Shown: positions 3,180 to 60,494 of the stretch, piece after piece
Layout of the letters: every line of letters begins with the position of its first letter
Position numbering within the stretch: the stretch's first letter is position 1
Assembly: GCA_903813345.2 (NCBI GenBank)
Contig: CAIIXF020000001.1
Span: forward strand, 43,619,366-43,683,365
Source of the DNA: Owenia fusiformis
Taxonomy: Eukaryota; Annelida; Polychaeta; Sabellida; Oweniidae
Direction: 5' to 3'
DNA length: 64,000 nt
The notes under the pieces: model-generated
The model's database searches: none
Told to the model about the DNA's origin: nothing
Seen by the model: only the letters and a program-made list of their open reading frames with translations
Made by a program: the position numbers and the translations under genes

Positions 3180-6859
<3,680 letters not shown>

Positions 6860-17229: not shown

Positions 17230-17495
17230 TAATTCTAGATACCATATACCATATATTTTCTATTATACCATATACCATATTAGGAGAGTGGGAGATCCAG
17301 CAAAAAGGCCTTATTTGTTGACCTTAATTAAGATAGCTTGCAACCGCATGAGTCATACCTGACTTTCATAATATGAATATGCAGATTTCAAAAATGACAA
17401 TAATAAAAATTGAAAAATGGCCGATCACTATGGAAACGAGACGCAAAAGCCACGCCCACTTTTTAAATTTCTTACTTGGTGGTTAATACATTTTA
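17230..17495. repeat. Left arm of a long inverted-repeat pair (partner 26190-26640)
   Basis: Ordered blocks shared with the reverse complement of the partner include GGAGAGTGGGAG, CTTAATTAAGAT, GCAACCGC, TTTCATAATAT, AAAAATGGCC, TATGGAAACG and GCCACGCCCACTTTT. The match is diverged but collinear over about 200 bp and weakly continues into the flanking tandem repeat. Confidence 0.6.
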
Positions 17496-19260
17496 GACTG
17501 TAACTTTCTCGATTTTTAACAAATCTTCACATTATTGGTATCTGCTGAAGCGTAATAATGAGTTCTTTCACCTCAAGCATAAATAATGTTAATTCGCTCA
17601 TTTGCATATCAATTATGACGTCATAACCCTTCTTTTGGCCTCAATTTTCCATATAGTTACAACAAAGTAACAGTGTTTTATTAGTTACACTTCTTAAAAA
17701 TGGATAAAAGTAGGTAAATATAGTGCCAATACAAGCAAGAGTATGTAGGCTTTTCGGATATACTGATATTGAAGGCTGCATGTTGGTTAGAATAACATAA
17801 AAACTCGTTGCCATGGTTACCGTGAACTTTTCAGTAATTTAGGCAATAAAACGTTTTGGACTGTAACTTTCTTTGTTTTTAAGCAATCTTAGCATTATTG
17901 GTATCAGAAGAAGCGAAATAATAAGTTCTTTCACCGCAAGCATAAATTATGTTAATTGACTCATTTGCGTATCCATTGTGACGTCATACCCCTTATTTTG
18001 GCCTCGATTTTCCATATATTTACAATAAAATAACAGTGTTTTATTAGTTAAACTTCTTAGAATGGATGAACGTTGATAAATACAGTGCCAATACAAGCAA
18101 GAGTATGTCAGCTTTTTGGATATACTGATATTGAAGGGTGCATGTTGGATAGAATATCATAAAATCTCGTTTCCATGGTTACTGTGAACTTTTCAGGAAT
18201 TTAGGCAATAAATACTTTTTGGACTGGAACTTTCTTTGTTTTTAAGCAATCTTAGCATTATTGGTATCAGAAGAAGTGAAATAATAAGTTCTTTCACCGT
18301 AAGCATAAATTATGTTTATTGGTTCATTTGCGTATCCATTATGACGTCATAGCCCTTCTTTTGGCCTCGATTTTCCATATATTTACAATAAAATAACAGT
18401 GTTTTATTAGTTAAACTTCTTGAAAATGGATGAAAGTAGGTAAATGCGGTGCCAATACAAGCAAGAGTATGTCGGCTTTTCGGATATACTGATATTGAAG
18501 GCTGCATGTTAGTTAGAATAACATAAAAACTCGTTGCCATGGTTACCGTGAACTTTTCAGCAATTTAGTCAATAAAAACATTTTGGACTGTAACTTTCTT
18601 TATTTTTAAGCAATCTTAGTATTATTGGTATCAGAAGAAGCGTAATAATAAGTTCTTTCACATCCTGCATAAATTATGTTAATTAGCTTTATATTTACAT
18701 ATACATTATGACGTCATAACCCTTGCTTTGGCATCAATATTCCAAGGAGGATTGGCTCCCAGAGTGCAACATCGATATTCTGCCCCATATATGGGTATGT
18801 CGTGCTACAAAATTTGAATTCCAACGACCGCCATTTTGTTCACTTCAACATTTGAATCGTGAATTTTCGTCTTATTTCCCAACGAAAAATTCCAAAACTC
18901 ACAAGAAATGATCGAGATATTGGTTCGAATATTTTGAACTGTTTATTTTGAATTTATAATCGGTTATAAATTCAGAAAATAACGACATTTCGGCGTTTTC
19001 ATTGTTGGAAAATATCGACTTCGATTCTGGGAGCCAATCCTCCTTGCAATATTCCATATATTAAAAATATGATAAGATTGTTTCAATGGCCTCACGTCTT
19101 AATAATGGTTAAAAGTAGGTATATGTATTGCCAATACAAAGAAGAGTATGTCAATCATCTAGATATACTGATAACTTAAAGTCTTCATGTTGGTAAGCAT
19201 ACCATAAACACTCGTTCCCATGGTTACAATGTACTTTTTAGTCGATGAATCCTATTTTGA
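17496..19260 (+). repeat. 363-bp tandem repeat array (about 4.5 units)
   Basis: The anchor GACTGTAACTTTCT (or a close variant) falls at 17496, 17859, 18222, 18586 and 19259. The steps are 363, 363, 364 and, after subtracting an inserted element, 361. Each of the first four units carries a TGACGTCA palindrome in an ATTATGACGTCATA-like context (about 17610, 17979, 18341 and 18708), and also CCATGGTTACCGTGAAC. Confidence 0.9.
18743..19046. mobile_element. hAT-type MITE with 8-bp target duplication
   Basis: The terminal inverted repeat CAAGGAGGATTGGCTCCCAG / CTGGGAGCCAATCCTCCTTG is perfect over 20 bp. It is flanked on both sides by CAATATTC (18735-18742 and 19047-19054), an 8-bp target duplication as made by hAT transposases. 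It interrupts the fourth unit of the 363-bp array. At 304 bp it has no transposase. Confidence 0.85.
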
Positions 19261-44777: not shown

Positions 44778-45608
44778 ATGTTTGTCAAGAAACAGCTGAC
44801 TAATGAAACGAGAAAACCACCTTAAAATTTACCTAACATACCCAAGAATTAATTATTCTGAAATTCCAATACTGAATATTTTATTTTAGGGAGATCTTTT
44901 AATATTGTTGAACCTCTAGCAAGGCTCAGTTCTGACATTTTCTTAGCTGACATGTTACTATTTCCAGTATTTCCTTGTCAATTGCAGAACCACCAATAAA
45001 ACTTGCAATAAATATGATAACAATTAAGTCACGACAACAACAACCAAAACAGTGAACTTATATAAGCTATACTACTTTATTCTGATAAAAGAGAAACAAC
45101 ATGAAAACAGTAGTTAAAAAATACAGAGTACTATACCAGTACATACATTTGTCATTAAAAGATTGTCTTGGAAAATATAAGGCATCTATTCTACATGTAA
45201 CTAATATAACATCACAAGGACTTCATCTACTTCATTTATCAAAAATTAATTCCAATAACCATAGGCAAAGATGATACACTTTAATTTACTATAATAAACA
45301 TGACAGATTTCTATCACAAACATAAAGCCAACAGGTCATGAATGTGGCCCCCAGAGTTTTTGCAAATAAAGCACAAGGCATTTACATGCAAATTGTCACC
45401 ACATGCCTTTTGTTACAGAGGCTGTATGTTGTTACAGACACTGAACACCAGCCAAAAAAGTTGGAGACTAGAACAAATGTTTGTCGCCACTTCTGGTGAT
45501 GACAAAAAACCTGTCTACTCCAATACCTTTGGGATTGCCTCACAGCTCAGATCTTTTGAAAGATGACACATCTATAAAGGACAATTTTCAGTTTGGATAA
45601 CCATAGAC

Positions 45609-45808
45609 GATTTTCGGTTTGGAGAACCAAATTCATCTGCATATTTCGACGTTATCAATGTTGCCAAAAATGAACATTTTTGTGTATTGTAAATTTAAAT
45701 GTCCTCTTTGTATACTTTAAAATCTACAATACGTAAAAATATGAAATTTTTGGTAACATGGATAACGTCGGAATATGCAGATGAATTTGGTTCTCAAAAG
45801 CGAAAATC
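45609..45808. repeat. 200-bp MITE in duplication copy 1
   Basis: The arms GATTTTCGGTTTGGAGAACC then ATTCATCTGCATATT are mirrored by AATATGCAGATGAATTTGGT then TCTCAAAAGCGAAAATC. Copy 2 carries it at 56720-56919, so it was present before the duplication. Confidence 0.8.
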
Positions 45809-46062
45809 ATCCTTTACCAAATCTATCTTTGCCATTTGTATTTGCACTAATAAATACATGAATGGAATGTGTTATAATGAGAAAAAATAGTTCTGGTTAA
45901 AGTGGATATATGCTTATTACAAATCTTGAGCACTTTATTTGGAAAGTTTCATGTATGCTATATACCTACACAACATGGATGGAATGTTAAAAATCACAAT
46001 TTATATTATATTATTAAATAAGTGGCTAATATCCAACAAACTACAAAAAAATATAAATGTAA

Positions 46063-48907
46063 CTAGATTTGTGAAATTGAACAAGTTCAATTTAAGACTC
46101 CAGATTTATTTGACCTAGATAGATCAGTAAAGAGCTGAGTAAGTAACTGAGTAATTGGCTGAGTAAGTACCTTAGTAGTAGTTGAGTAAGTAGCTGAGTA
46201 AGTAACTGAGTAAAAAGCTGAGTAGGTAGCTGAGTAAGTAGCTGAGTAAGTACCTGAGTTAGTAGCTGAGTAAGTTGCTAAGGAAGTAATAACTAATTAA
46301 GTAATTGAGTAAGTAGTCAAATAAGTAGCTGAGTAGGTAGAGAGGTAAAGTAGGGTATGCAGGAATTTTTGAAAGTATATTTGATCAATCTGCATCGTGA
46401 ATACTGGCAAGTGCGAATTTCAAACTTCAAAATGGCGTAGAATCTAAACCGGTGGTCGGATTGCAATTTTAATTTCAGATCCAGATTCCTGAGGAAATTC
46501 TACCCCTAATTCATAACTCATACTTTAAAATTGGAGAACTTTTTATTTTGACCTACATTTCGGACACCATATCTCAAAAGTGGGTCAAAAAACTTATTGA
46601 CGGCAAAATGTTAACATTATTAGCACACTCTTTGCTACAAGTTTACAAAATTTCGGAGAATATCATTGAAGTGTAGTGTCAGAATCGCAAAATAAAAAAA
46701 ACTATGAATTTGACCTAGATTTTGAACTAGGTATTTTGGTGTCCAAACTTTGAAGGAAAGTAGCTTTTGAGGTCCCCTTCTTCTATGGGCTTTCATTATT
46801 TTTAGCTGTACTCATTCTATATCTCGTATTTTTATACTTCAAAAAATTATTCGGTCCCATTGATTTAACATGGGGCACCAAATTTAGCGATTTTTGAGAT
46901 TTCAAAACGCCATAACTTCAGAACAAGTAGTCGGATCGAAATTTGGTTTGCAGATCTAGATTTCTGAGAAAATTCTACCCTTAATTCATAACTCATACGT
47001 TAAATTTGGAAAACTTTTAACTTTGGCCTACTTTTCGGACACCATATCTCAAAAGTGCGTCAAAATACTTTCTGACGGCAAAACGCTAACACTATTAGCA
47101 TACTCTTTGCTACCTGTACACAAAATTTTAAAGCAAATCATTTAAATATAGTGTCAGAATCGCAAAAATAAGGGAAAACTATAAATTTGACCTAGATTTT
47201 GACCTAGGCATTTTGGTGTCCAAATTTTGGAGCTAAGTAGCCTTCGAGGTCCCCTTCTTTAATAGGCGTTCATTATATTAAGCTGTACTCAGTCTATATC
47301 TCGTATTTTACACTTCAAAAAAATCTTTTTTCCCATTGACATAACATGGGGCAGCAAATTTAGCGATTTTTGAGCTTTCAAAACACCATAACTTCCGAAC
47401 AAAAGGTCGAATCAAAATTTGATTTGCAGATTCGGATTCCTGATAAAATTCTACCCCTTATTCATAACTCATACGTTACATTTGAAGATTTTTTTATTTT
47501 GACCTACTTTTGGGACACCATATCTCAAAAGTGGGTCAAAATACTTTTTGACGGCAAAAGGCTTACACTATTAGCACACTCTTGGCTACATGTATACACA
47601 ATTTCGAAGAATATAATTAAAGTGTAGTGTCAGAATCGCAAAAATAAGGAAAAGCTTTGAATTTGACCTAGATTTTGACCTAGGCATTTTGTTGTCCAAA
47701 TTTTCAAGATTAGAAGGTTTTGAGGTCCCCTTCTTTTATGGGCTTCCATTATGTTTAGCTGTACTTAGTCTATATCTCGTATTTTACACTTCAAAAAAAT
47801 ATTTTTTCCCATTGACATAACATGGGGCACCAAATTTAGCGATTTTTGAGCTTTCAAAACGCCATAACTTCCGAACCAGAAGTCGGATCGAAATTTGGTT
47901 TGCAGATTTGGATTCCAGAGAAAATTCTATCCTTAATTCATAGCTCATACGTTAAATTTGGAAACTTTTTATTTTGACCTACTTTTCGGACACGCCATAA
48001 CTTCCAAACCGGAAGTCGGATCGAAATTTGGTTTGCAGATTCGGATTCCTGAGAAAATTCTATATTTAATTCATAACTCAAACGTCAAATTTTAAGAATT
48101 TGTTATTTTGACCTACTTTTCGGACACCATATCTCAAAAATGGGGCAAAATACTTTCTGACGGCAAAAGGCTAACACTATTAGCTGACTCTTAGCTACAT
48201 GTATACAAAATTTCGAAGAATATAATTAATCTGTTGTGTCAGAATCGCAAAAATAAGGAAAAACTTTGAATTTGACCTAGATTTTGACCTAGGCATGTTG
48301 GTGTCCAAATTTTGAAGCTAGATGGCTTATGAGGTCCCCTTCTTTTAAAAGCTTTCATTATATTTAGCTGAACTCAGTCTATATTTCGTATTTTTCACTT
48401 CAAAAAAATATTTTTTCCCATTGACCTAACATGGGCACCAAATTTAGCGATTTTTGAGCTTTCAAAACGCCATAACTTCCGAATGGGAAGTCGGATCAAA
48501 ATTTGGTTTGCAGATTCGGATTCCTGAGAAAATTCTACCCTTATTTCATAGCTCATATGTTAAATTTGGAGAACTTTTTGGTTTTGACCTACTTTCAGGA
48601 CGCCATATCTCAAAATCGCTAAGAGAAATCAAAAAATGGATGGCACACTCTCGATTTGATTTTTTTTAAGCTACATGTAGAAAATAAGATGAAGTAGTTA
48701 CGACAAACAACAACGAAGATAATTGACAGAATGTTGATTTGACCTTGATTTGACCTAGTTCTTGACCCTTGACCTAGATAAAAATTTGACCTAATTTCCC
48801 ATCATCCCAGGTACTGCCCCTAGTTGATCATGTAAGCAGCTTAAAGTAAATTCTTTTAGTTGGTGAGAAATCTGGGAAGGAGGAAGATTCTGAAAGAATA
48901 ATAATAA
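46063..48907 (+). repeat. Array unit 1
   Basis: This longest unit (2845 bp) has a diverged 5' end (CTAGATTTGTG) and a GCTGAGTAAGTA minisatellite at about 46130-46345 in place of the GGATAGGAAGG run. It has four to five internal subrepeats, with CGCCATAACTTC anchors near 46908, 47383, 47860 and 48468. Confidence 0.75.
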
Positions 48908-50273
48908 CTAGACTTGAGAAATTGAACGAAGTTCAATTTCAGACTCCAGATCCAGACTTTTTTAAGCCCAGTCATCTAAAATAAGCCGGGTAGGAAAGGA
49001 TAGAATGGGTTGGAACGATAGGATAGAATAAGAAAGAAGGATAGGATAGAACAGAATAGGAAGAAAGGATATGATAGGAGAGGATAGGAAGGATATGAAG
49101 GAAAGGATACGAAGGAAGGATAGATAGGAAGGATAGGATATGATCAGATAGGAAGGATGGATGAATTTTTCAATATTTTCTTCTCTACTCTTGACTTTCT
49201 ATCAGGATACCATCAGATCGATTTTCCGAAATTTCAAAACGCCATAACTTCCGAACCGGAAGTCGGATCTAAATTTGGTTTAAAGATTCGGATTCCTGAC
49301 AAAATTCTACCCCTAATTCATAACTCATACGTTAAATTTGGAAACTTTTTATTTTGACCTACTTTTCGGACACGCCATAACTTCCGAAGCGGAAGTCGGA
49401 TCGAAATTTGATTTGCAGATTCGGATTCCTGACAAAATTCTATTCCTAATTCATAACTCATACGTTAAATTTGGAGAACTTTTTATTTTGACCTACTTTT
49501 CTGACACCATATCTCAAAAGTGGGTCAAAATACTTTCTGACAGCAAAAGGCTAACACTATAAGCACACTCTTGGCTACATGTATACACAATTTCGAAGAA
49601 TATAATTGAAGTGTAGTGTCAGAATCGCAAAAATAAGGAAAACCTTTGAATTTGACCTAGATTTTGACCTAGGAATTTTGGTGTCCAAATTCTGAAGCTA
49701 GATGGCTTTTGAGGTCCCCTTCTTTTGAAGGCTTTCATTAAATTAAGCTGAACTCAGTCTATATTTCGTATTTTTCATTTCAAAAAAATCTTTTTTCCCA
49801 TTGACTTAACATGGGCACAAAATTTAGCGATTTCTGAGTTTTCAAAACGCCATAACTTCCGAACTAGGAGTCGGATCGAAATTTGGTTTGTAGATTCGGA
49901 TTCCTGACAAAATTCTACCCCTAATTCATAACTCATACATTGAATTTGGAGCACGTTTTGGTGTGACCTACTTTCTGGACGCCATATCTCAAAATCGGTT
50001 TGAGATATCAAAAAACTAAATCGACCCTAGCTTTCCTACTTTTTTATGAGGAACACAATGAAAAAAACCTGGATCGAAAATATTGAAGGACGACTGAGAA
50101 AATTGAAAAAAGTGACAAAGTACTGGATTTGACCTAGTTCTTGACCTTTGACCTAGATAAAAATTTGACCCAATTTCCCACCAACTAGATACTGAACCTA
50201 AATCAACGGTATAATGGTCTTTACTGGATACCTTATAGTTACTGAAAAAACTCAAAAAGAAAAATAAGAATAA
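48908..50273 (+). repeat. Array unit 2
   Basis: It is 1366 bp, with the 5' hairpin at 48918-48940, a GGATAGGAAGG-type run at about 49000-49160, and subrepeats from 49235. It ends AAAAATAAGAATAA without the 3' hairpin. Confidence 0.8.
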
Positions 50274-51826
50274 CTAGACTTTGGAAATTGAACGAAGTTC
50301 AATTTCAGACTCCAGATTAAGACCTTTTTTAGCCGAGTCATCCAGAATAAGCTGAGTCATCCAGAATAAGCTGAGTCATCCAAAAAAAGATGGATGAATA
50401 AAATAGGAAGGTAGGATAGGATAGAATAGGAAGGAACGATAGGATAGAATAAGAAAGAAGGATAGGATAGAATAAGAAGAAAGGATATGATAGGATAGGA
50501 TAGGAAGGAAAAGACACGATCAAAGGATAGATAGGAAGGATAGGATAGGATAGGATCAGATAGGAAGGATAAATGAATTTTTCAATATTTTCTTCTCTAC
50601 TCTTGACTTTCTATCAGGATACCATCAGATCGATTTTCCGAAATTTCAAAACGCCATAACTTCCGAACCGGAAGTCGGATCTAAATTTGATTTAAAGATT
50701 CGGATTCCTGACAAAATACTACCCCTAATTCATAACTCATACGTTAAATTTGGCGAATTTTTATTTTGACCTACTTTTTGGACACGCCATAACTTCGGAA
50801 CCGGAAGTCGGAACAAAATTTGGTTTGCAGATTCGGATTTCTGAGAAAATTCTATATTTAATTCATAACTCAAAAGTTAAATTTGGAAACTTTTTATTTT
50901 GACCTACTTTTCGGACACGCCATAACTTCCGAACCGGAAGTCAGATCGAAATTTGGTTTGCAGATTTGGATTCCTGACAAAATTCTACCCCTAATTCATA
51001 ACTCATACGTTAAATTTGGAGAACTTTTTATTTTGACCTACTTTTCGGACACCATATCTCAAAAGTGGGTCAAAATACTTTCTGACGGCAAAAAGCTAAC
51101 ACTATTAGCACACTCTTGGCTACATATATACACAATTTCGAAGAATATAATTGGAGTGTAGTGTCAGAATCGCAAAAATAAGGAAAACCTTTGAATTTGA
51201 CCTAGATTTTGACCTAGGCATTTTGGTGTCCAAATTTTGAAGCTAGATGGCTTTTGAGGTCCCCTTCTTTTGAAGGCTTTCATTAAATTAAGCTGAATTC
51301 AGTCTATATTTCGAATTTTTCACTTCAAAAAAATCTTTTTTCCCATTGACTTAACATGGGCACCAAATTTAGCGATTTTTCAGCTTTTAAAACGCCATAA
51401 CTTCCGAACCGGAAGTCGGATCGAAATTTGGTTTGCAGATTCGGATTCCTGACAAAATTCTACTCCTAATTCATAACTCATACATTGAATTTGGAGCACG
51501 ATTTGGTGTGACCTACTTTCTGGATGCCATATTTCAAAATCGGTAAGAGTAATCAAAAAACGGATGGCACACTTATGAAAGGGCTGTTTGTAAGCTACAG
51601 GATGAAAAAAAGAGGAAGACGTTTCGAGAAATAACGACGAAGATAATAGACAGAAGGTTGAAAATGTAAGATTTGACCTAGTTCTTGACCTTTGACCTAG
51701 ATAAAAATTTGACCCAATTTCCCACGAACTAGATACTGAACCTAAATGAACTGTATAATGGTCTTTACTGGATACCTTATAGTTATTGAAAAAACTCTTA
51801 AAGAAAAATAATAATAATAATAATAA
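50274..51826 (+). repeat. Array unit 3
   Basis: It is 1553 bp, with 5' hairpin, GAGTCATCCAGAATAAGC phrases, a purine run at 50395-50570, subrepeats, and an AATAATAATAATAATAA end without the 3' hairpin. Confidence 0.8.
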
Positions 51827-53467
51827 CTAGACTTTGGAAATTGAACGAAGTTCAATTTCAGACTCCAGATTTAGACCTTTTTTAGCCGAGTCATCCAGAA
51901 TAAACCGAGTCATCCAGAATAAGCTGAGTCATCCAGAAAAAGACGGATGGATAAAATAGGAAGGTAGGATAGGATAGAATAGGAAGGAACGATAGGATAG
52001 AATAAGAAAGAAGGATAGGATAGAACAGAATAGGAAGAAAGGATATGATAGGAGAGGATAGGAAGGATAGGATAGAACAGAATAGGAAGAAAGGATATGA
52101 TAGGAGAGGATAGGAAGGATAGGAAGGATAGGAAGGAGAAAAGATACGAAGGAAGGATAGATAGGAAGGATAGATAGGAAGGATAGGATAGGATAAGATC
52201 AGATAGGAAGGATGGATGAATTTTTCAATATTTTCTTCTCTACTCTTGACTTTCTATCAGGATGCCATCAGATCGATTTTCCGAAATTTCAAAACGCCAT
52301 AACTTCCGAACCGGAAGTCGGATCGAAATTTGATTTTCAGATTCCTGACAAAATTCTACCCCTAATTCATAACTCATACGTTAAATTTGGCGAATTTTTA
52401 TTTTGACCTACTTTTCGGACACGCCATAACTTCCAAACCGGAAGTCGGATCGAAATTTTGTTTGCAGATTCGGATTCCTGACAAAATTCTACCCCTAAGT
52501 CGTAACTCATACATTAAATTTGGAGAATTTTTTATTTTGACCTACTTTTCGGACACCATATCTCAAAAGTGGGTCAAAATACTTTCTGACGGCAAAAGGC
52601 TAACACTATTAGCAGACTCTTGGCTATATGTATACACAATTTCGAAGAATATAATTGAAGTGTAGTGTCAGAATCACAAAAATAAGGAAAACCTTTGAAT
52701 TTGACCTAGATTTTGTCATAGGAATTTTGGTGTCCAAATTCTGAAGCTAGATGGCTTTTGAGGTCCCCTTCTTTTGAAGCCTTTCATTTAATTAAGCTGA
52801 ACTCAGTCTATATTTCATATTTTTCACTTCAAAAAAATCTTTTTTCCCATTGACTTAACATGGGCACAAAATTTAGCGATTTTTGAGTTTTTAAAACGCC
52901 ATAACTTCCAAACCAGAAGTCGGGTCAAAATTTGGTTTGCAGATTCGGATTCCTGACAAAATTCTACCCCTAATTCATAACTCATACATTGAATTTGGAG
53001 CACGTTTTGGTGTGACCTACTTTCCGGACACCATATCTCAAAATCGGTTTGAGATATCAAAAAACTAAATCGACCTACCTTTCCTACTTTTTTATGAGGA
53101 ACACAATGAAAAAAACCTGGATCGAAAATATTGAAGGACGACTGAGAAAATTGAAAAAAGTGACAAAGTACTGGATTTGACCTAGTTCTTGACCTTTGAC
53201 CTAGATAAAAAATTGACCCAATTTCCCAGAAACTAGATACTGGACCTAAATTGACCATATACAGGACTTGACTCAATGTCTTCTAGTTAAGGAGAAAACG
53301 TTTGTAGAAGAATAATAATAATAATAAGAATAAGAATAAAGAAGAATACTGGCAAAAACAATAGACTCCAGATTGACATCTGGAGTCTAATAAGAAGAAG
53401 AAGAAGAAGAATACTGGCAAAAACAATAGACTCCAGATTGACATCTGGAGTCTAATAAGAAGAAGAA
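51827..53467 (+). repeat. Array unit 4
   Basis: It is 1641 bp with the same order of parts as unit 3 and a long purine run (51950-52215). It ends with two copies of the 3' segment carrying the TCTGGAGTCTAATAAG hairpin end (hairpins 53363-53388 and 53428-53453). Confidence 0.8.
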
Positions 53468-55522
53468 CTAGACTTTGGAAATTGAACGAAGTTCAATTTC
53501 AGACTCCAGATCTAGACTTTTTTAAGCCCAGTCATCTAAAATAAGCCGAGTCATCCAGAATAAGCTGAGTCATCCAGAATAAGATGGATGGATAGAAAAG
53601 GAAGGTAGGATAGGATAGAATGGGAAGGAACGATAGGATAGAATAAGAAAGAAGAATAGGATAGAACAGAATATGAAGAAAGGATATGATAGGAGAGGAT
53701 AGGAAGGATAGGAAGGAAAGGATACGAAGGAAGGATAGATAGGATGGATAGGATAGGATCAGATTTGAAGGATGGATTTTTCAATATTTTCTTCTCTACT
53801 CTTGACTTTCTATCAGGATACCATCAGATCGATTTTCCGAAATTTCAAAACGCCATACCTTCCGAACCGGAAGTCGGATCTAAATTTGATTTAAAGTTTC
53901 GGATTCCTGACAAAATTCTACCCTTAATTCATAACTCATACGTTAAATTTGGCGAATTTTTATTTTGACCTACTTTTTGGACACGCCATTTCTTCGGAAC
54001 CGGAAGTCGGATCGAAAATTGGTTTGCAGACTCGAATTCCTGAGAAAATTCTACCCTTAATTTATAACTCATATGTTAAATTTGGAGAACTTTTTACCTA
54101 CTTTTCGGACACCATATCTTAAAAGTGGGTCGAAATACTTTCTGACGGCAAAAGGCTAACGCTATTAGCACACTCTTTCCTACCTGTATACAAAATTTTG
54201 AAGCAAATCATTTAAATATAGTGTCAGAATCGCAAAAATAAGGAAAAACTATGAATTTGACCTAGATTTTGACCTAGGGATTTTGGTGTCCAAATTTTGA
54301 AGTTGGGTAGCCTTCGAGGTCCCCTTCTTTCATAGGCTTTCATTATTTTAAGCTGTACTTAGTCTATATCTCGTATTTTACACTTCAAAAAAATCTTTTA
54401 TCCCATTGATATAACATGGGGCACCAAATTTAGCGATTTTTGAGCTTTCAAAATGTCATAACTTCCGAACCGGAAGTCGGATCGAAATTTGGTTTGCAGA
54501 TTCGGATTCCTGAGAAAATTCTATACTTAATTCATAACTCAAACGTTAAATTTGGAGAATTTTTTATTTTGACCTACTTTTCGGACACCATATCTCAAAA
54601 GTGGGTCAAAATACTTTCTGACGGCAAAAGGCTTACACTATTAGCACACTCTTGGCTACATGTATACAAAATTTCGAAGAATATAATTAATCTGTAGTGT
54701 CAGAATCGCAAAAATAATGAAAAACTTTGAATTTGATCTAGATTTTGACCTAGGCTTTTTGGTGTCCAAATTTTTATGAAAAGAAGGTTTTGAGGTCTCT
54801 TTCTTTTATGGGCTTCCATTATGTTTAGCTGTGCTTAGTCTATATCTCGTATTTTACACTTCAAAAAAATATTTTTCCCATTGAATTAACATGGGGCACC
54901 AAATTTAGCGATTTTTGAATTTTCAAAACGCCATAACTTCTGAACCGGGAGTCAGATCGAAATTTGGTTTTCAGATTCGGAATCCTGAGAAAATGTCCTA
55001 TAAGACTGATATCCTGGATATTGGATTCGGAGAACTTATTTTTGGACCTCGTTTTCGGACACTGATATCTCGAAATCGGTTTGAGATACCAAAAAACTAA
55101 ATCGACCCTTGGTTTTCTACTTTTTTATGAGGAACACAATGAAAAAAACCCGGATCGAAAATATTGAAGGACGACCGAGAAAATCGAAAAAAGTGACAAA
55201 GTACTGGATTTGACCTAGTTCTTGACCTTTGACCTAGATAAAAATTTGACCCAATTTCCCACCAACTAGATACTGAACCTAAATAAACTGTATTATGGTA
55301 CTTACTGGATACCTCATAGTTATTGAAAAAACTCCCAAAGAATAATAAGAATAAGAATAAGAAGAAGAATAAGAATACTGGCAAAAACAATAGACTCCAG
55401 ATTGACATCTGGAGTCTAATAATAAGAATACTGGCAAAAACAATAGACTCCAGATTGACATCTGGAGTCTAATAAGAATACTGGCAAAAACAATAGACTC
55501 CAGATTGACATCTGGAGTCTAA
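53468..55522 (+). repeat. Array unit 5
   Basis: It is 2055 bp and ends with three copies of the 3' segment (hairpins 55392-55417, 55445-55470, 55495-55520), the last forming the border with host DNA. Confidence 0.8.
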
Positions 55523-56719
55523 TAAAAAGAATATCCTGTTCTGTGGTGTTTCTTATCCCATCATGGATAATCCCTCAGACATTATTGGATATCCTTTAAA
55601 TATTGGACACTTTTGCCTATTGTATAATATGAAACATTAACATGCAAAATGTCACCACCTGTCATTTATTCAAGAAACACACCTAGTGCTGGACACCAAT
55701 CGCCTTCACAAAAAGATGGAGACCATAACAATATTTGTATGTCACCACTTTTGGAGGTGACATATCAATAATTTGTGATGATGCACCGTCATATTATAGA
55801 CACATTCGGTGAATTTACAATAGACAGTGCTCATCATCCTTCAAGATCAGCCTTAGATTAGACAGTGCAAGTTTTTTTGTACATACTCGTAGATGTATCA
55901 TAATATAATACATTATGCAATACAAAAAACCTTGTAAATCTTGTTGATGTGCTTTACATTTTGTTAGATTGGACGGATTTATATAATCACAACTCAGAAC
56001 TGCTCTCAGGGAGCAGATGATGAAATGCTTCATACATATGCTGACATTTTCTTAGCTGACATGTTACTATTTCCAGTATTTCTTTGTCAATTGTAGAACC
56101 ACCAATAAAACTTGCAATAAATATGATAACAATTAAGTCACGACAACAACAACCAAAACAGTGAACTTATATAAGCTATACTACTTTATTCTGATAAAAG
56201 AGAAACAACATGAAAACAGTAGTTAAAAAAATACAGAGTACTATACCAGTACATACATTTGTCATTAAAAGATTGTCTTGGAAAATATAAGGCATCTATT
56301 CTACATGTAACTAATATAACATCACAAGGACTTCATCTACTTCATTTATCAAAAATTAATTTCCAATAACCATAGGCAAAGATGATACACTTTAATTTAC
56401 TATAATAAACATGACAGATTTCTATCACAAACATAAAGCCAACAGGTCATGAATGTGGCCCCCAGAGTTTTTACAAATAAAGCACAAGGCATTTACATGC
56501 AAATTGTCACCACATGCCTTTTGTTACAGAGGCTGTATGTTGTTACAGACACTGAACACCAGCCAAAAAAGTTGGAGACTAGAGCAAATGTTTGTCGCCA
56601 CTTCTGGTGATGACAAAAAACCTGTCTACTCCAATACCTTTGGGATTGCCTCACAGCTCAGATCTTTTGAAAGATGACACATCTATAAAGGACAATTTTC
56701 AGTTTGGATAACCATAGAC

Positions 56720-56919
56720 GATTTTAGGTTTGGAGAACCAAATTCATCTGCATATTTCGACGTTATCAATGTTGCCAAAAATGAACATTTTTGTGTATTG
56801 TAAATTTAAATGTCCTCTTTGTATACTTTAAAATCTACAATACGTAAAAATATGAAATTTTTGGTAACATTGATAACGTCGGAATATGCAGATGAATTTG
56901 GTTCTCAAAAGCGAAAATC
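56720..56919. repeat. 200-bp MITE in duplication copy 2
   Basis: Second copy of the element at 45609-45808, with small differences (for example TTTTAGGTTTGG for TTTTCGGTTTGG). Confidence 0.8.
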
Positions 56920-57690
56920 ATCCTTTACCAAATCTATCTTTGCCATTTGTATTTGCACTAATAAATACATGAATGGAATGTGTTATAATGAGAAAAAATA
57001 GTTCTGGTTAAAGTGGATGTATGCTTATTACAAATCTTGAGCACTTTATTTGGAAAGTTTCATGTATGCTATATACCTACACAACATGGATGGAATGTTA
57101 AAAATCACAATTTATATTATATTATTAAATAAGTGGCTAATATCCAACAAACTACAAAAAAATATAAATGTAATAAAAAGAATATCCTGTTCTGTGGTGT
57201 TTCTTATCCCATCATGGATAATCCCTCAGACATTATTGGATATCCTTTAAATATTGGAAACTTTTGCCTATTGTATAATATGAAACATTAACATGCAAAA
57301 TGTCACCACCTGCCATTTATTCAAGAAACACACCTAGTGCTGGACACCAATCGCCTTCACAAAAGGATGGAGACCATAACAATATTTGTATGTCACCACT
57401 TTTGGAGGTGACATATCAATAATTTGTGATGATGCACCGTCATATTATAGACACATTTGGTGAATTTACAATAGACAGCGCTCATCATCCTTCAAGATCA
57501 GCCTTAGATTAGACAGTGCAAGTTTTTTGTACATACTCGTAGATGTATCATAATATAATACATTATGCAATGCAAAAAACCTTGTAAATCTTGTTGATGT
57601 GCTTTACATTTTGTTAGATTGGACGGATTTATATAATCACAACTCAGAACTGCTCTCAGGGAGCAGATGATGAAATGCTTCATACATATG

Positions 57691-58586
57691 CATTTCTTTC
57701 TTTATCTCACATTACTGAAACAAATGCATATAGCAAAACATGCATGAACAATTGTATACTTTTTATCAAGTATTGTATAAGTATCTAATACACAATATTT
57801 AAGTTTACAAATATGCTTACAATCACAATGCACACAAGTTTAACAAATTTATGTACTCACTGCAATGTAAGAAATTTTATTTTTGAATGCTGATTTTCAT
57901 TTTGAGCAGTGCAAGCTTTTGTACTGTAAGCTTTTGTACTCTTGAATTTCCTCACTTGAAATCATGAATGCTTTGAATTAATTTAAATCCTGTGATTGCT
58001 TACACATACAGGGTGACCCGAAAAAAGGAGACCATTGAAGTAGGCAATATCTCCTAAACTAGACAAGTGACATTGGTGAAATTTTGCACTCATTAGAAGA
58101 GTTCTATGGAAATTTGTTCCTGAAAGTTTCAATAAAGATGACTGTTCCGATGTGTGCAAAATTTCATTGATGTCACTTGTCTAGTTTAGGAGATATTGCC
58201 TACTTCAATGGTCTCCTTTTTTCTGGCCACCCTGTATAAGTTATAATTCACTCCTTTTTTCTGGCCACCCTGTATAAGTTATAATTCACTGCATTATAAA
58301 CTTTACTGAGAAATAAAGTGAGGTTTGCAAATATAAAAATAATATATAAGTGCTGCAAAGCTTACTAAAATAGAACTGATGAAGCAATAGAAATATAACG
58401 AAATCAAATTTTTCATAGTCTTGCATCAAACCCTGTGCTGGGATGGAGGGAATTTTTTTATAACCCCTTTCTGGCTAATGCACAGGAAAAATAGTGGGCC
58501 CATTAGTCTCGTATTTTTCCATAAAAAGCCAATTTTCAGTGGGTTGGATATAGATGGGATTAAGAGACTTGATACAAGACTAACCT
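57691..58586. other. Intergenic, 3' flank of the LRR-Ig gene
   Basis: Apart from the MITE at 58009-58234 nothing is recognised. The + strand ORF at 58421-58663 overlaps the end of the receptor gene and is not a credible gene. Confidence 0.4.
58009..58234. mobile_element. TA-flanked CAGGGTGACC MITE
   Basis: The ends CAGGGTGACCCGAAAAAAGG and the mirrored CCTTTTTTCTGGCCACCCTG, with TA on both sides. The arms continue through GAGACCATTGAAGTAGGCAA and TTGCCTACTTCAATGGTCTC. It is 226 bp. About 39 bp of the right end plus flank is repeated just downstream (58252-58290). Confidence 0.85.
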
Positions 58587-60494
58587 TTAAACAACAGTTT
58601 CAGTCTTTGTTACAACAACATGGCTTTGTACTTCTGTGTCAACATTTGTCATGGATGCAATAGATATGGTATGACTTATATCACCAGTTCCACAAAGTTC
58701 CTTCATGGAGTGAATATGATGTTTAACTTGCTCTACTCCTAAGACAACACCCTCTCTCATACGTTGTCCATACTGACGACTTGATGCACGAATAGTTTGA
58801 AGTTTGTAACGACTGTTTTCACCAAGTTTGTGAATGTACTGAGAACCGGATTGTTTCAAATCTTTCATTTGTATTTTCACTTCTTTCATTTGTGATCGTG
58901 CCATTGTCATACGACGGTCAACTTCAATTCTGAGTTGGCGTCGTGCTTCCTCCAAACTTTGCCTCAGTTTGAGCTTGACAGCTCCATCAATTTCTTCTTC
59001 CGAGTCACTGGTAGCAAGGGGTGTATTTCCTCCATATTTTTGAGGAGAGGCACGCAGGGATTGGATCCAGAAAGGGCTGTGTTGACAAGGCGCTGGAGAA
59101 TGTAGGGGAGTATGTTCTCCACATTCTGAATCATCAATGATAATATCAGGTAGGTCAAACATTTTTTTATTTTTTTTTAAACATGCCTCAAGACACAGAC
59201 ATATTCCACCATAGATCAAAGTCAGCACTATACATATCCCTGCAGATCCAGCAGCCAGAATCATATTTATCATGAATATCTCACTTATAGTTGACTTCTG
59301 TGTGACAAATATTGTTTCATTAACATACCCACTTGGATTTATAGCAGTACATGTAAATTGCCCTGCAAAATAATTTCTAATCTGCGAGATAACCAGGCTT
59401 CCATCTTTTTGCACTGTGGCTTCAGACTTGAAGTAACTTCGAGCACCAGCAAATGCATGTTGACCCTTGTGGATGTATAATTCTGGGGGAAGCCACATTG
59501 CATGTGAGGGGTGAACGAGAATCTGTCCCATAGGAGTTGTCCAGTATACTCCAGGAGTAGGTTCGCCAGATGCATTGCACCACAAAGTAACATCTTGTAA
59601 ATGACTCACAGTAATATTCTGTGTAATATTTAGGATTATTGGAGGCTGACAAGTTAGCTCATCAAATTCCAATTGTTCAATCGGGGTACCTTGTAACACT
59701 AGAGGTTGGTTGCATATCATTCTTTGACGATTCTTATAATATGCATGATTGTGAAGATCTCGAATAATCCAGTTCAAGCCACATTGGCAATTCCATGGAT
59801 TATTTTCAAGATGAAGATGCGTTAAATTATTCAAGTTGATCATTGCTTGTTCATGTAGGTGTACAAGCTGATTATCACACATATGAAGAACCTTCATGTT
59901 TATCAATGTATTGAAAGCTGTAGGGGATATCACATTTATCTTGTTGTAGCTGATATCTAGATGTGTTAAAGAGGTAAGCCCATTGAATAGATCGGCTCCA
60001 ATCTGTATTATCATATTATGACTTAAATCAATATGGGTTAGATGGGACTTTCTCAAGAATATACCATTGGGGATTTTGGTCAGTGAATTATGGCTTAAGT
60101 TCAATGATGCTAGGTTATCCAAATCCTGGAATACATCAGATCTCAAATTGTCAATTGTGTTTTGTGACAATTGTAATGATTTTAGATGAACTAATCCAAT
60201 AAATGTAAATTCATCTATTTGGGAAATATGATTGTTCAAGAGATGAATGTGACGTATATTGGGAAGCATCCACAGTTTGTTTATGCTATGAAAATTTGCT
60301 CCATGTATGTCTAATTTATGAATCTGGGATTTCCAAATAGAGAGAAGTAAATCAGTCCAAGATTCACTTAGTCCATTGGTGCATGACACAGATGTTTTGG
60401 CGCAAAAACATTCGTCGGGACATGCATTGACAGGTATCAATAAAAACACTAAAAAGTAATTGAATGTACATATTTTGATCGGCATAATCGCCAT
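58587..60494 (-). CDS. LRR-Ig single-pass transmembrane receptor (single coding exon)
   Basis: A 635-aa type I membrane protein. Order: signal peptide 1-24; LRR N-cap with CPDECFC (25-31); about seven leucine-rich repeats to residue 230 (for example LASLNLSHNSLTKIP); LRR C-cap NPWNCQCGLNW (232-242) to Cys282; one Ig-like domain about 284-398 with Cys306, Trp318 and Cys382; transmembrane helix about 408-435 followed by KKNKK. The tail of about 190 aa has an acidic patch (SDSEEEID, 496-503), a charged helical, possibly coiled-coil segment (505-548), and a C-terminal ETVV that fits a class I PDZ ligand. N-glycosylation sequons occur at 289, 293, 307 and 392. The layout is that of neural adhesion/guidance LRR-Ig proteins (LRRC24, LRIT, AMIGO, LINGO, Kekkon groups). 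I cannot assign an orthologue. The start ATG is the first in frame after an in-frame stop. Overlapping ORFs on this strand are shadows. Confidence 0.93.
   Translation of the reverse strand: MAIMPIKICTFNYFLVFLLIPVNACPDECFCAKTSVSCTNGLSESWTDLLLSIWKSQIHKLDIHGANFHSINKLWMLPNIRHIHLLNNHISQIDEFTFIGLVHLKSLQLSQNTIDNLRSDVFQDLDNLASLNLSHNSLTKIPNGIFLRKSHLTHIDLSHNMIIQIGADLFNGLTSLTHLDISYNKINVISPTAFNTLINMKVLHMCDNQLVHLHEQAMINLNNLTHLHLENNPWNCQCGLNWIIRDLHNHAYYKNRQRMICNQPLVLQGTPIEQLEFDELTCQPPIILNITQNITVSHLQDVTLWCNASGEPTPGVYWTTPMGQILVHPSHAMWLPPELYIHKGQHAFAGARSYFKSEATVQKDGSLVISQIRNYFAGQFTCTAINPSGYVNETIFVTQKSTISEIFMINMILAAGSAGICIVLTLIYGGICLCLEACLKKNKKMFDLPDIIIDDSECGEHTPLHSPAPCQHSPFWIQSLRASPQKYGGNTPLATSDSEEEIDGAVKLKLRQSLEEARRQLRIEVDRRMTMARSQMKEVKIQMKDLKQSGSQYIHKLGENSRYKLQTIRASSRQYGQRMREGVVLGVEQVKHHIHSMKELCGTGDISHTISIASMTNVDTEVQSHVVVTKTETVV

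Follow-up and report, generated by a model that had tools for sequence, protein, structure and literature searches.

The window analysed here, a stretch of 64,000 nucleotides from the genome of Owenia fusiformis (contig C1:43619366-43683365; the genome searched comprises 498 Mb in 525 contigs), harbours a head-to-tail array of five copies of an element that, judged by its ends, appears to be a HINE, i.e. a non-autonomous Helentron, oriented on the minus strand. Arrays of this family have very probably arisen by the repeated insertion of HINE copies into the (TTATTC)n tract that lies just inside the 5' hairpin of the element itself. The order of the 5' and 3' ends along the arrays, the pairing of outer hairpins with later bodies, and the way in which the tract is split at nested insertions all bear on this proposal.

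In the following, H denotes the 5' hairpin and C the 3' end, both on the element's (minus) strand, and L-numbers denote genome loci that were fetched. The five units which a first-pass annotation had listed as sharing one start are real and begin at 46063, 48908, 50274, 51827 and 53468, the array terminating at 55520; however, the exact start string CTAGACTTTGG is found in only three of the five, unit 1 starting with CTAGATTTGTG and unit 2 with CTAGACTTGAG. Likewise, a hairpin plus CTAA is indeed present at the far border, but there are three hairpins there rather than one, and two further ones lie at the junction of units 4 and 5, the five 26-nt hairpins being located at 53363, 53428, 55392, 55445 and 55495. 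The only open reading frame of at least 120 aa within the array (52824-53276, 150 aa, TTG start) was regarded as compatible with the lack of coding capacity of HINEs. The features are as follows.

46063-55520, minus: whole array of five putative HINE copies, 5' end at 55520 and 3' end at 46063
55495-55520, minus: 5' hairpin H1, outermost; host before it on the minus strand ...CTTTTTATT; DNA fold of hairpin plus tail z -5.9
55445-55470, minus: 5' hairpin H2
55392-55417, minus: 5' hairpin H3, innermost of the first stack
55340-55372, minus: T-rich (TTATTC)n tract inside H3, proposed landing tract, read from the sequence
53468-53511, minus: 3' end C (3' subterminal inverted repeat, hairpin, CTAG), closes H3
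53428-53453, minus: 5' hairpin H4
53363-53388, minus: 5' hairpin H5
51827-51870, minus: 3' end C, closes H5
50274-50317, minus: 3' end C, closes H4
48908-48951, minus: 3' end C, closes H2
46063-46105, minus: 3' end C at the outer 3' border, closes H1; beyond it on the minus strand come TT and host ACATTTATA
44932-46062, no strand: flank of the insertion in copy 1 of the 1.65-kb host duplication, 99.2% identical to 56041-57173
55520-56041, no strand: opposite flank of the insertion in host copy 1, 98.7% identical to 57171-57691; the first bases overlap the element end and the AA/TT ambiguity
57168-57180, no strand: ATGTAATAAAAAG, the empty site of host copy 2; CTTTTTATTACAT on the minus strand

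With respect to the order of the ends, the window reads HHHCHHCCCC, that is, five H and five C with C never outnumbering H, while the single insertions (L013-L016, L020) read HC. Altogether 39 loci were parsed (23 first, then 16), 17 of which are closed, i.e. have host or non-family sequence at both ends as judged by eye; the other 22 are open at one end within the fetched sequence or (L045, L051) have no intact H. The later parse allowed a looser spacing for C and fewer mismatches for H than the first, by which one false H each was dropped in L041+19 and L023+38+24 and at least one C was gained in L044, L047, L050, L052 and L053+54. Equal numbers of H and C were found in 13 of the 17 closed loci, namely the five singles, the window (5/5), L040+17, L043+22 and L048 (2/2 each), L046, L060+81 and L061+82 (3/3 each) and L053+54 (8/8). 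Among the 12 closed loci with several units the counts are equal in eight (Pearson r 0.95), and as many equal counts were reached in 0.28% of shuffles. L042+21 has two H and one C. Of the 43 internal C that were counted, 33 are followed by at least 250 bp, mostly recognisable bodies, before the next end, and ten meet an H within 120 nt; sister insertions, with C followed by H, are permitted by the brackets as well. The initial description of the array as a plain rolling-circle tandem is thus not borne out, as 33 of the 43 internal junctions have no 5' end and the order of the ends fits nested self-insertion. In addition, the five single units have a tract of 21-33 nt, and at nested insertions the remnants to the left (between stacked H; median 9, n = 55) and to the right (after C; median 18, n = 33) add up to about one tract.

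Nesting can also be followed by sequence type. The tails of H and the starts of the bodies fall into subtypes, and 44 adjoining H-body pairs define the correspondence between them. For each body directly after a C, the nearest body from another locus was determined and its tail compared with that of the H assigned by the brackets, at most one mismatch being tolerated in the 19-nt tail. Under this matching rule, which was fixed only after inspection of the sequences, the bracket-assigned tail was predicted in 22 of 29 classifiable cases, compared with a shuffle mean of 6.9, and none of 100,000 shuffles reached 22; with one case per locus there were 18 matches out of 23 (shuffle mean 5.1). The order H, H, C, body occurs 24 times, and in the 15 cases where the two H differ, the body agrees with the outer H 13 times and with the inner one twice (11 of 13 for the outer H when two weak cases are dropped by limiting the comparison to a score of 30 or more). 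For the three-H arrays L060 and L061, it was predicted in writing before fetching that the third body would belong to group A (start plus AGTCTT form of C), with host sequence beyond the third C; this held in both, the host being recognised by eye. A pattern for the T2 tail matched 60 places, of which 16 were fetched, and also caught a previously undefined tail type, attgcttttgccagttttc; the strict prediction for T2 outside an innermost T1, concerning the body directly after the first C, was fitted by both L060 and L069. No match (0) was obtained with a pattern in which an inner TGTCA hairpin closely follows an outer tail T3.

The plan of the element becomes evident on the minus strand. Directly after TTATT it begins with AGACTCCAGAT-loop-ATCTGGAGTCT, to which a tail of 19 nt (attgtttttgccagtattc in the most frequent type) and the (TTATTC)n tract are joined. 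Next come a body that contains a microsatellite and satellite-like repeats, ATCTGGAGTCT, a hairpin with a 10-bp stem and ten nucleotides ending in CTAG, and then TT. As single-stranded DNA the hairpins have a fold z of -5.9 (5') and -3.4 (3'), the unit-1 variant of the 3' end reaching only -2.2. The inverted subterminal repeats AGACTCCAGAT and ATCTGGAGTCT are identical over 11 bp, in agreement both with the at least 11 bp expected for Helentrons and HINEs and with the earlier observation of a subterminal sequence inverted between the two ends. The 5' palindrome follows TT directly (2 nt if TT is counted as part of the element; about 2-4 nt from the 5' terminus in HINEs), the 3' subterminal repeat starts 44 nt before the CTAG end (about 38-60 bp in HINEs), its inner edge being only 33 nt away, and the 3' palindrome ends 10 nt before the CTAG end (about 8-35 bp in HINEs). 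The descriptions of HINEs in PMC4067079 (subterminal inverted repeats, 3' palindrome, TT target) and of Helitron2 ends in PMC5148889 give the same plan. Together with the TT target these spacings support the rolling-circle, non-autonomous, Helentron-like identity that had been proposed from the outset. However, the orientation given then has to be reversed: the side with CTAGACTTTGG and a hairpin is the 3' end, which on the minus strand consists of a hairpin plus 10-11 nt with CTAG as the last letters, and the side with hairpin and CTAA is the 5' end. Since a 5' TC is the mark of Helitron1 (PMC5148889), its absence is no sign of a divergent lineage, as had been surmised.

Across the genome, the unit start, with some positions unspecified, was counted 631 + 768 = 1,399 times and the exact far hairpin with CTAA 207 + 231 = 438 times, while the reversed control patterns gave 0 in either case; because of this abundance, a chance origin is excluded. 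The 301-bp start of unit 1 is matched at 99-100% identity by all 40 copies scored (out of 1,404 first-look candidates), on many chromosomes and unplaced contigs, and five single-unit insertions with fixed ends (L013-L016, L020) were found. This is a dispersed element and not a local satellite, and the identity of the scored copies speaks for recent activity. On these sequence data, the family may be taken as a real and apparently recently active HINE family of non-autonomous Helentrons.

With regard to the target, TT precedes all 99 H of the 39 loci and TTATT 96 of them, and TT follows 75 of the 76 C, so that the target between A and T assumed in the first-pass annotation does not apply. The three H lacking TTATT are, by eye, host-side insertions (L013, L040+17, L061). 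Nested H lie in TTATT tracts by nature; among the outermost H of the closed loci, 14 of 17 follow TTATT (by eye, with the same three exceptions). As had been described, the host sequence around the array is a tandem duplication of about 1.65 kb in which only copy 1 is interrupted, copy 2 being intact at 57168-57180. Taken alone, the alignment of this empty site is ambiguous by up to 3 bases (no target site duplication, or one of TAA), and other copies settled the matter. The search for single units with empty sites, which had been recommended, succeeded for L015: 40 scored places align with its joined flanks across the junction (1,089 candidates; query 90-220 of 220, the left side contributing only 20 nt), and the six sites read all have GCTTTAATTATT-ACATTTATA, compared with ...TTATT-element-TTACATT in the filled site, flanked by TT and not by A and T as had been anticipated. 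Accordingly, in both insertions with empty sites, the window and L015, TT was gained and the target is otherwise unchanged. The gained TT is either duplicated target or the element's own, which the sequence cannot separate; the same ambiguity is described in PMC4067079. For L025+39+26 and L048, the corresponding searches with joined flanks returned no empty site but only the two flanks themselves. Of the host flanks, those of L015 and the window have the target string TTATTACATTTATAT in common and some similarity beyond it, the host of L015 being a repeat with 40 scored copies.

The most likely course of self-insertion is as follows. HINE copies would be mobilised in trans by a Rep/helicase/endonuclease protein by way of a single-stranded, probably circular, rolling-circle intermediate with a preference for TTATT. 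As the (TTATTC)n tract inside each 5' hairpin would offer a row of such targets, new copies would land in the tract of an older one, each landing adding one H to the front stack and one body with its 3' end behind. The outcome would be a head-to-tail array with bare CTAG/TTATT junctions and balanced brackets, in which the first H pairs with the last C and the order of the brackets may correspond to the order in time. The termini, the gain of TT at two otherwise unaltered targets, the TTATT context, the order of the brackets, the matching of types and the splitting of the tract are read from the sequence itself, whereas the step driven by Rep, the circle and the equation of bracket order with time are inferred.

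Several other origins of the arrays have to be considered. Rolling-circle concatemers or a bypass of the 3' end, by which several units would be laid down in one event, have been described in the Helitron arrays of bat and silkworm (PMC4067079) and put forward to explain arrays in plant centromeres (PMC12628747), and such an origin would account for the ten internal C that meet an H within 120 nt; the H-poor arrays L018 and L025+39+26 could also be bypass products begun at an inner H. However, a concatemer of whole units should read HCHCHC, whereas most internal C lack an adjoining H and the H are stacked at the front, and the bodies within one array differ in type and match their bracket partners, which makes this origin unlikely. 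Growth as an ordinary satellite, by unequal crossing-over between the T-rich tracts with the H modules multiplied separately by slippage, could draw on the repetitive nature of the tracts, on the spacing of the H modules (about 49-75 bp) and on neighbouring bodies of the same type in some arrays (L044, L050). Yet the fixed ends with TT on both sides, the differing bodies in many arrays and the covariation of H and C counts speak against it, and the match between outer H and body would be unexpected, so that satellite growth has to be regarded as very improbable.

The remaining two alternatives concern the nature of the element. PIF/Harbinger elements are cut-and-paste transposons with a 3-bp TWA target duplication, and the window junction does read TAA on both sides, as would be expected from an element of this kind duplicating TAA. 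This possibility, which had been named in advance as one that would overturn the rolling-circle interpretation, was checked in twelve loci with H and C, eight of which have host-like sequence beyond both ends, the left neighbour in L017, L019, L021 and L022 being another unit. While AA (TT on the minus strand) flanks both ends in all twelve, the third base on the left side (window's strand) varies, with CAA at L013, a single unit, and at the border of L018, and AAA at the L023/L024 border, and the right side has TAA throughout; a 3-bp TAA duplication is excluded by this variation unless all of these differences are later mutations. As, moreover, the ends are not simple terminal inverted repeats, a cut-and-paste origin is scarcely conceivable. 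Just as little can be said for a canonical Helitron in the orientation first assumed, with 5' CTAG, a 3' hairpin plus CTAA and insertion between A and T: a hairpin followed by CTAA does occur at one border, but it is the opposite strand that fits a Helentron or HINE at both ends, in the subterminal inverted repeats, the spacing of hairpin and CTAG and the TT target, and there is no 5' TC. As to membership of Helitron1 itself, the element was rejected on account of the missing TC, the TT target and its inverted subterminal repeats, only the 3' hairpin with CTAG agreeing with the CTRR ending.

A number of observations weigh against self-nesting. The parsed loci are a non-random sample, picked by exact end patterns and mostly from contig C1, and the closure of the 17 loci by eye is a further weakness. 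Four closed loci are off by one (L018 with 1H/2C, L025+39+26 with 2H/3C, L041+19 with 3H/2C and L023+38+24 with 5H/4C), for which bypass of the 3' end or a start from an inner H could be the explanation, and L053+54 is balanced only with the looser C pattern, the first parse having given 8H/7C. In L045 two C have no H in the preceding 2.9 kb, L051 has only half a hairpin, and in L044 one H is followed by four C, this locus being open at both ends (a C before the H, and a body after the last C). Pairing failed in seven of the 29 classifiable cases, and seven of 36 were unclassifiable, two of these being host after the last C of unbalanced loci. The outermost pair of the window itself is unclassified (score 27) and, as far as can be told, not type-consistent, since the kind of body in unit 1 follows another tail elsewhere, and L055, where one T2 lies outside another, departs from the bracket rule.

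An autonomous partner was looked for near Rep genes. The Rep domain PF14214 has 58 matches in the genome (e.g. L027:13-8940), 23 of them in single open frames of at least 3,000 aa, and many on small unplaced contigs. The one protein scanned, P0001, contains an OTU domain, Rep with the motif VEFQMRGSPHVH, a PIF1 helicase and a C-terminal Exo_endo_phos domain, and VEFQMRGSPHVH is the S form given for Helentrons (PMC4067079); a Helentron protein therefore exists in the O. fusiformis genome. P0001 also carries a herpesvirus-tegument-like domain (PF04843), which like the OTU domain precedes Rep. However, in the stretches read at 11 of the 58 Rep loci, on the 3' side of ten (L027/L028, L029-L037) and the 5' side of four (L071-L074, three of them also read on the 3' side and L072 being another locus), none of the ends of the array family was found near Rep, which again counts against the proposal; these reads are partial, as they consist of 4-kb pieces and a 155-bp tandem repeat fills most of L029 and L031, so that the ends may be located further out. 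When the 3'-side loci were scanned for a palindrome with CTAGTT, there was no match, and in a separate listing of palindromes none had the family's plan. HINEs of the oyster are likewise not tied to an autonomous partner in the account of PMC7492417.

Compared with known systems, the family shares with the Helentron HINEs of Metaseiulus, Culex and Drosophila (DINE-1), as portrayed by Thomas et al. 2014 (PMC4067079), inverted subterminal repeats of 11-15 bp, palindromic in several families, a 3' subterminal repeat followed by a 3' palindrome, the TT target with the target otherwise unchanged, internal microsatellites or tandem repeats and no coding capacity; it differs from them in its usual target TTATT and in arrays that fit nesting in its own 5' tract. 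Similarly, Cg_HINE of the Pacific oyster (Vojvoda Zeljko et al. 2020, PMC7492417) has a left subterminal repeat plus an inverted repeat with a microsatellite, central satellite-like repeats and a right subterminal repeat with a palindrome, but there the tandem repeat lies within one element, whereas in Owenia whole elements are stacked. The Helitron2 elements FoHeli of Fusarium (PMC5148889) have asymmetric terminal inverted repeats, hairpins at both ends (FoHeli1 and FoHeli2) and multiple 5' termini, and self-insertion was proposed for them; in the same source, composites of two H with one 3' end are proposed for Fusarium, and three tandem copies in Metarhizium are ascribed to two insertions into the 5' end or to rolling-circle replication. 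In contrast to Owenia, with its many arrays and pairing test, the cases described there are single or few, and the target of FoHeli1 and FoHeli2 is TNAT/A. Tandem Helitron units also occur in the truncated Helitron arrays of plant centromeres (Xiong et al. 2016, via PMC12628747), but many of these have multiple 5' ends with a single 3' end, ascribed to rolling-circle amplification, whereas the arrays in Owenia contain 5' and 3' ends in roughly equal numbers, arranged as brackets. Self-insertion is an already published idea, and what is added here is a test across many arrays of one genome that separates it from concatemers; in the open-licence literature, as far as the texts available to us extend, no bracket-type pairing test of Helentron arrays was met with.

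Other sequences were seen next to or within the arrays. A different palindrome, AGGAGGCCCC...GGGGCCTCCT, stands after TCTAGTTATTATTAT or TTATT beside arrays on the minus strand of L047 (633-659, 684-708) and L049 (about 3799-3825), and points to a second HINE-like family, which may share the TTATT landing site. Directly after TTATT within stacks, sequences starting with AGAATGCC and palindromic in L053+54 (L054, about 4,900-4,960, minus strand; L070) hint at a third family that has inserted into the same tract. Elsewhere in the window, a 635-aa open frame beside the array (58587-60494, minus strand) resembles, by eye, a leucine-rich-repeat/Ig membrane protein, and a 363-bp tandem repeat is present in 3.5 copies at 17485-18744.

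How dispersed transposons turn into tandem arrays is an open question, for which the routes published for Helitrons, to the extent that the cited sources cover them, are rolling-circle amplification, end bypass and, in fungi, self-insertion. Single loci in Owenia carry marks enough to tell these routes apart, such as empty sites, a target tract that has been split and ends that pair by subtype, and these point to self-targeted nesting. As a practical warning, such arrays are easily misannotated as satellites or on the wrong strand. If self-targeted nesting is true, the arrays also record the order of insertion, and the history of transposition would be readable locus by locus without dating. 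More tentatively, the 5' tract might be a built-in landing pad that is kept because it pays and is used by HINE families with other subterminal repeats as well; arrays could then move on as composites with an outer start and an inner stop, mixing front ends and bodies and converting a dispersed transposon into satellite-like DNA, with the bracket order as a readable record of jumps at each locus.

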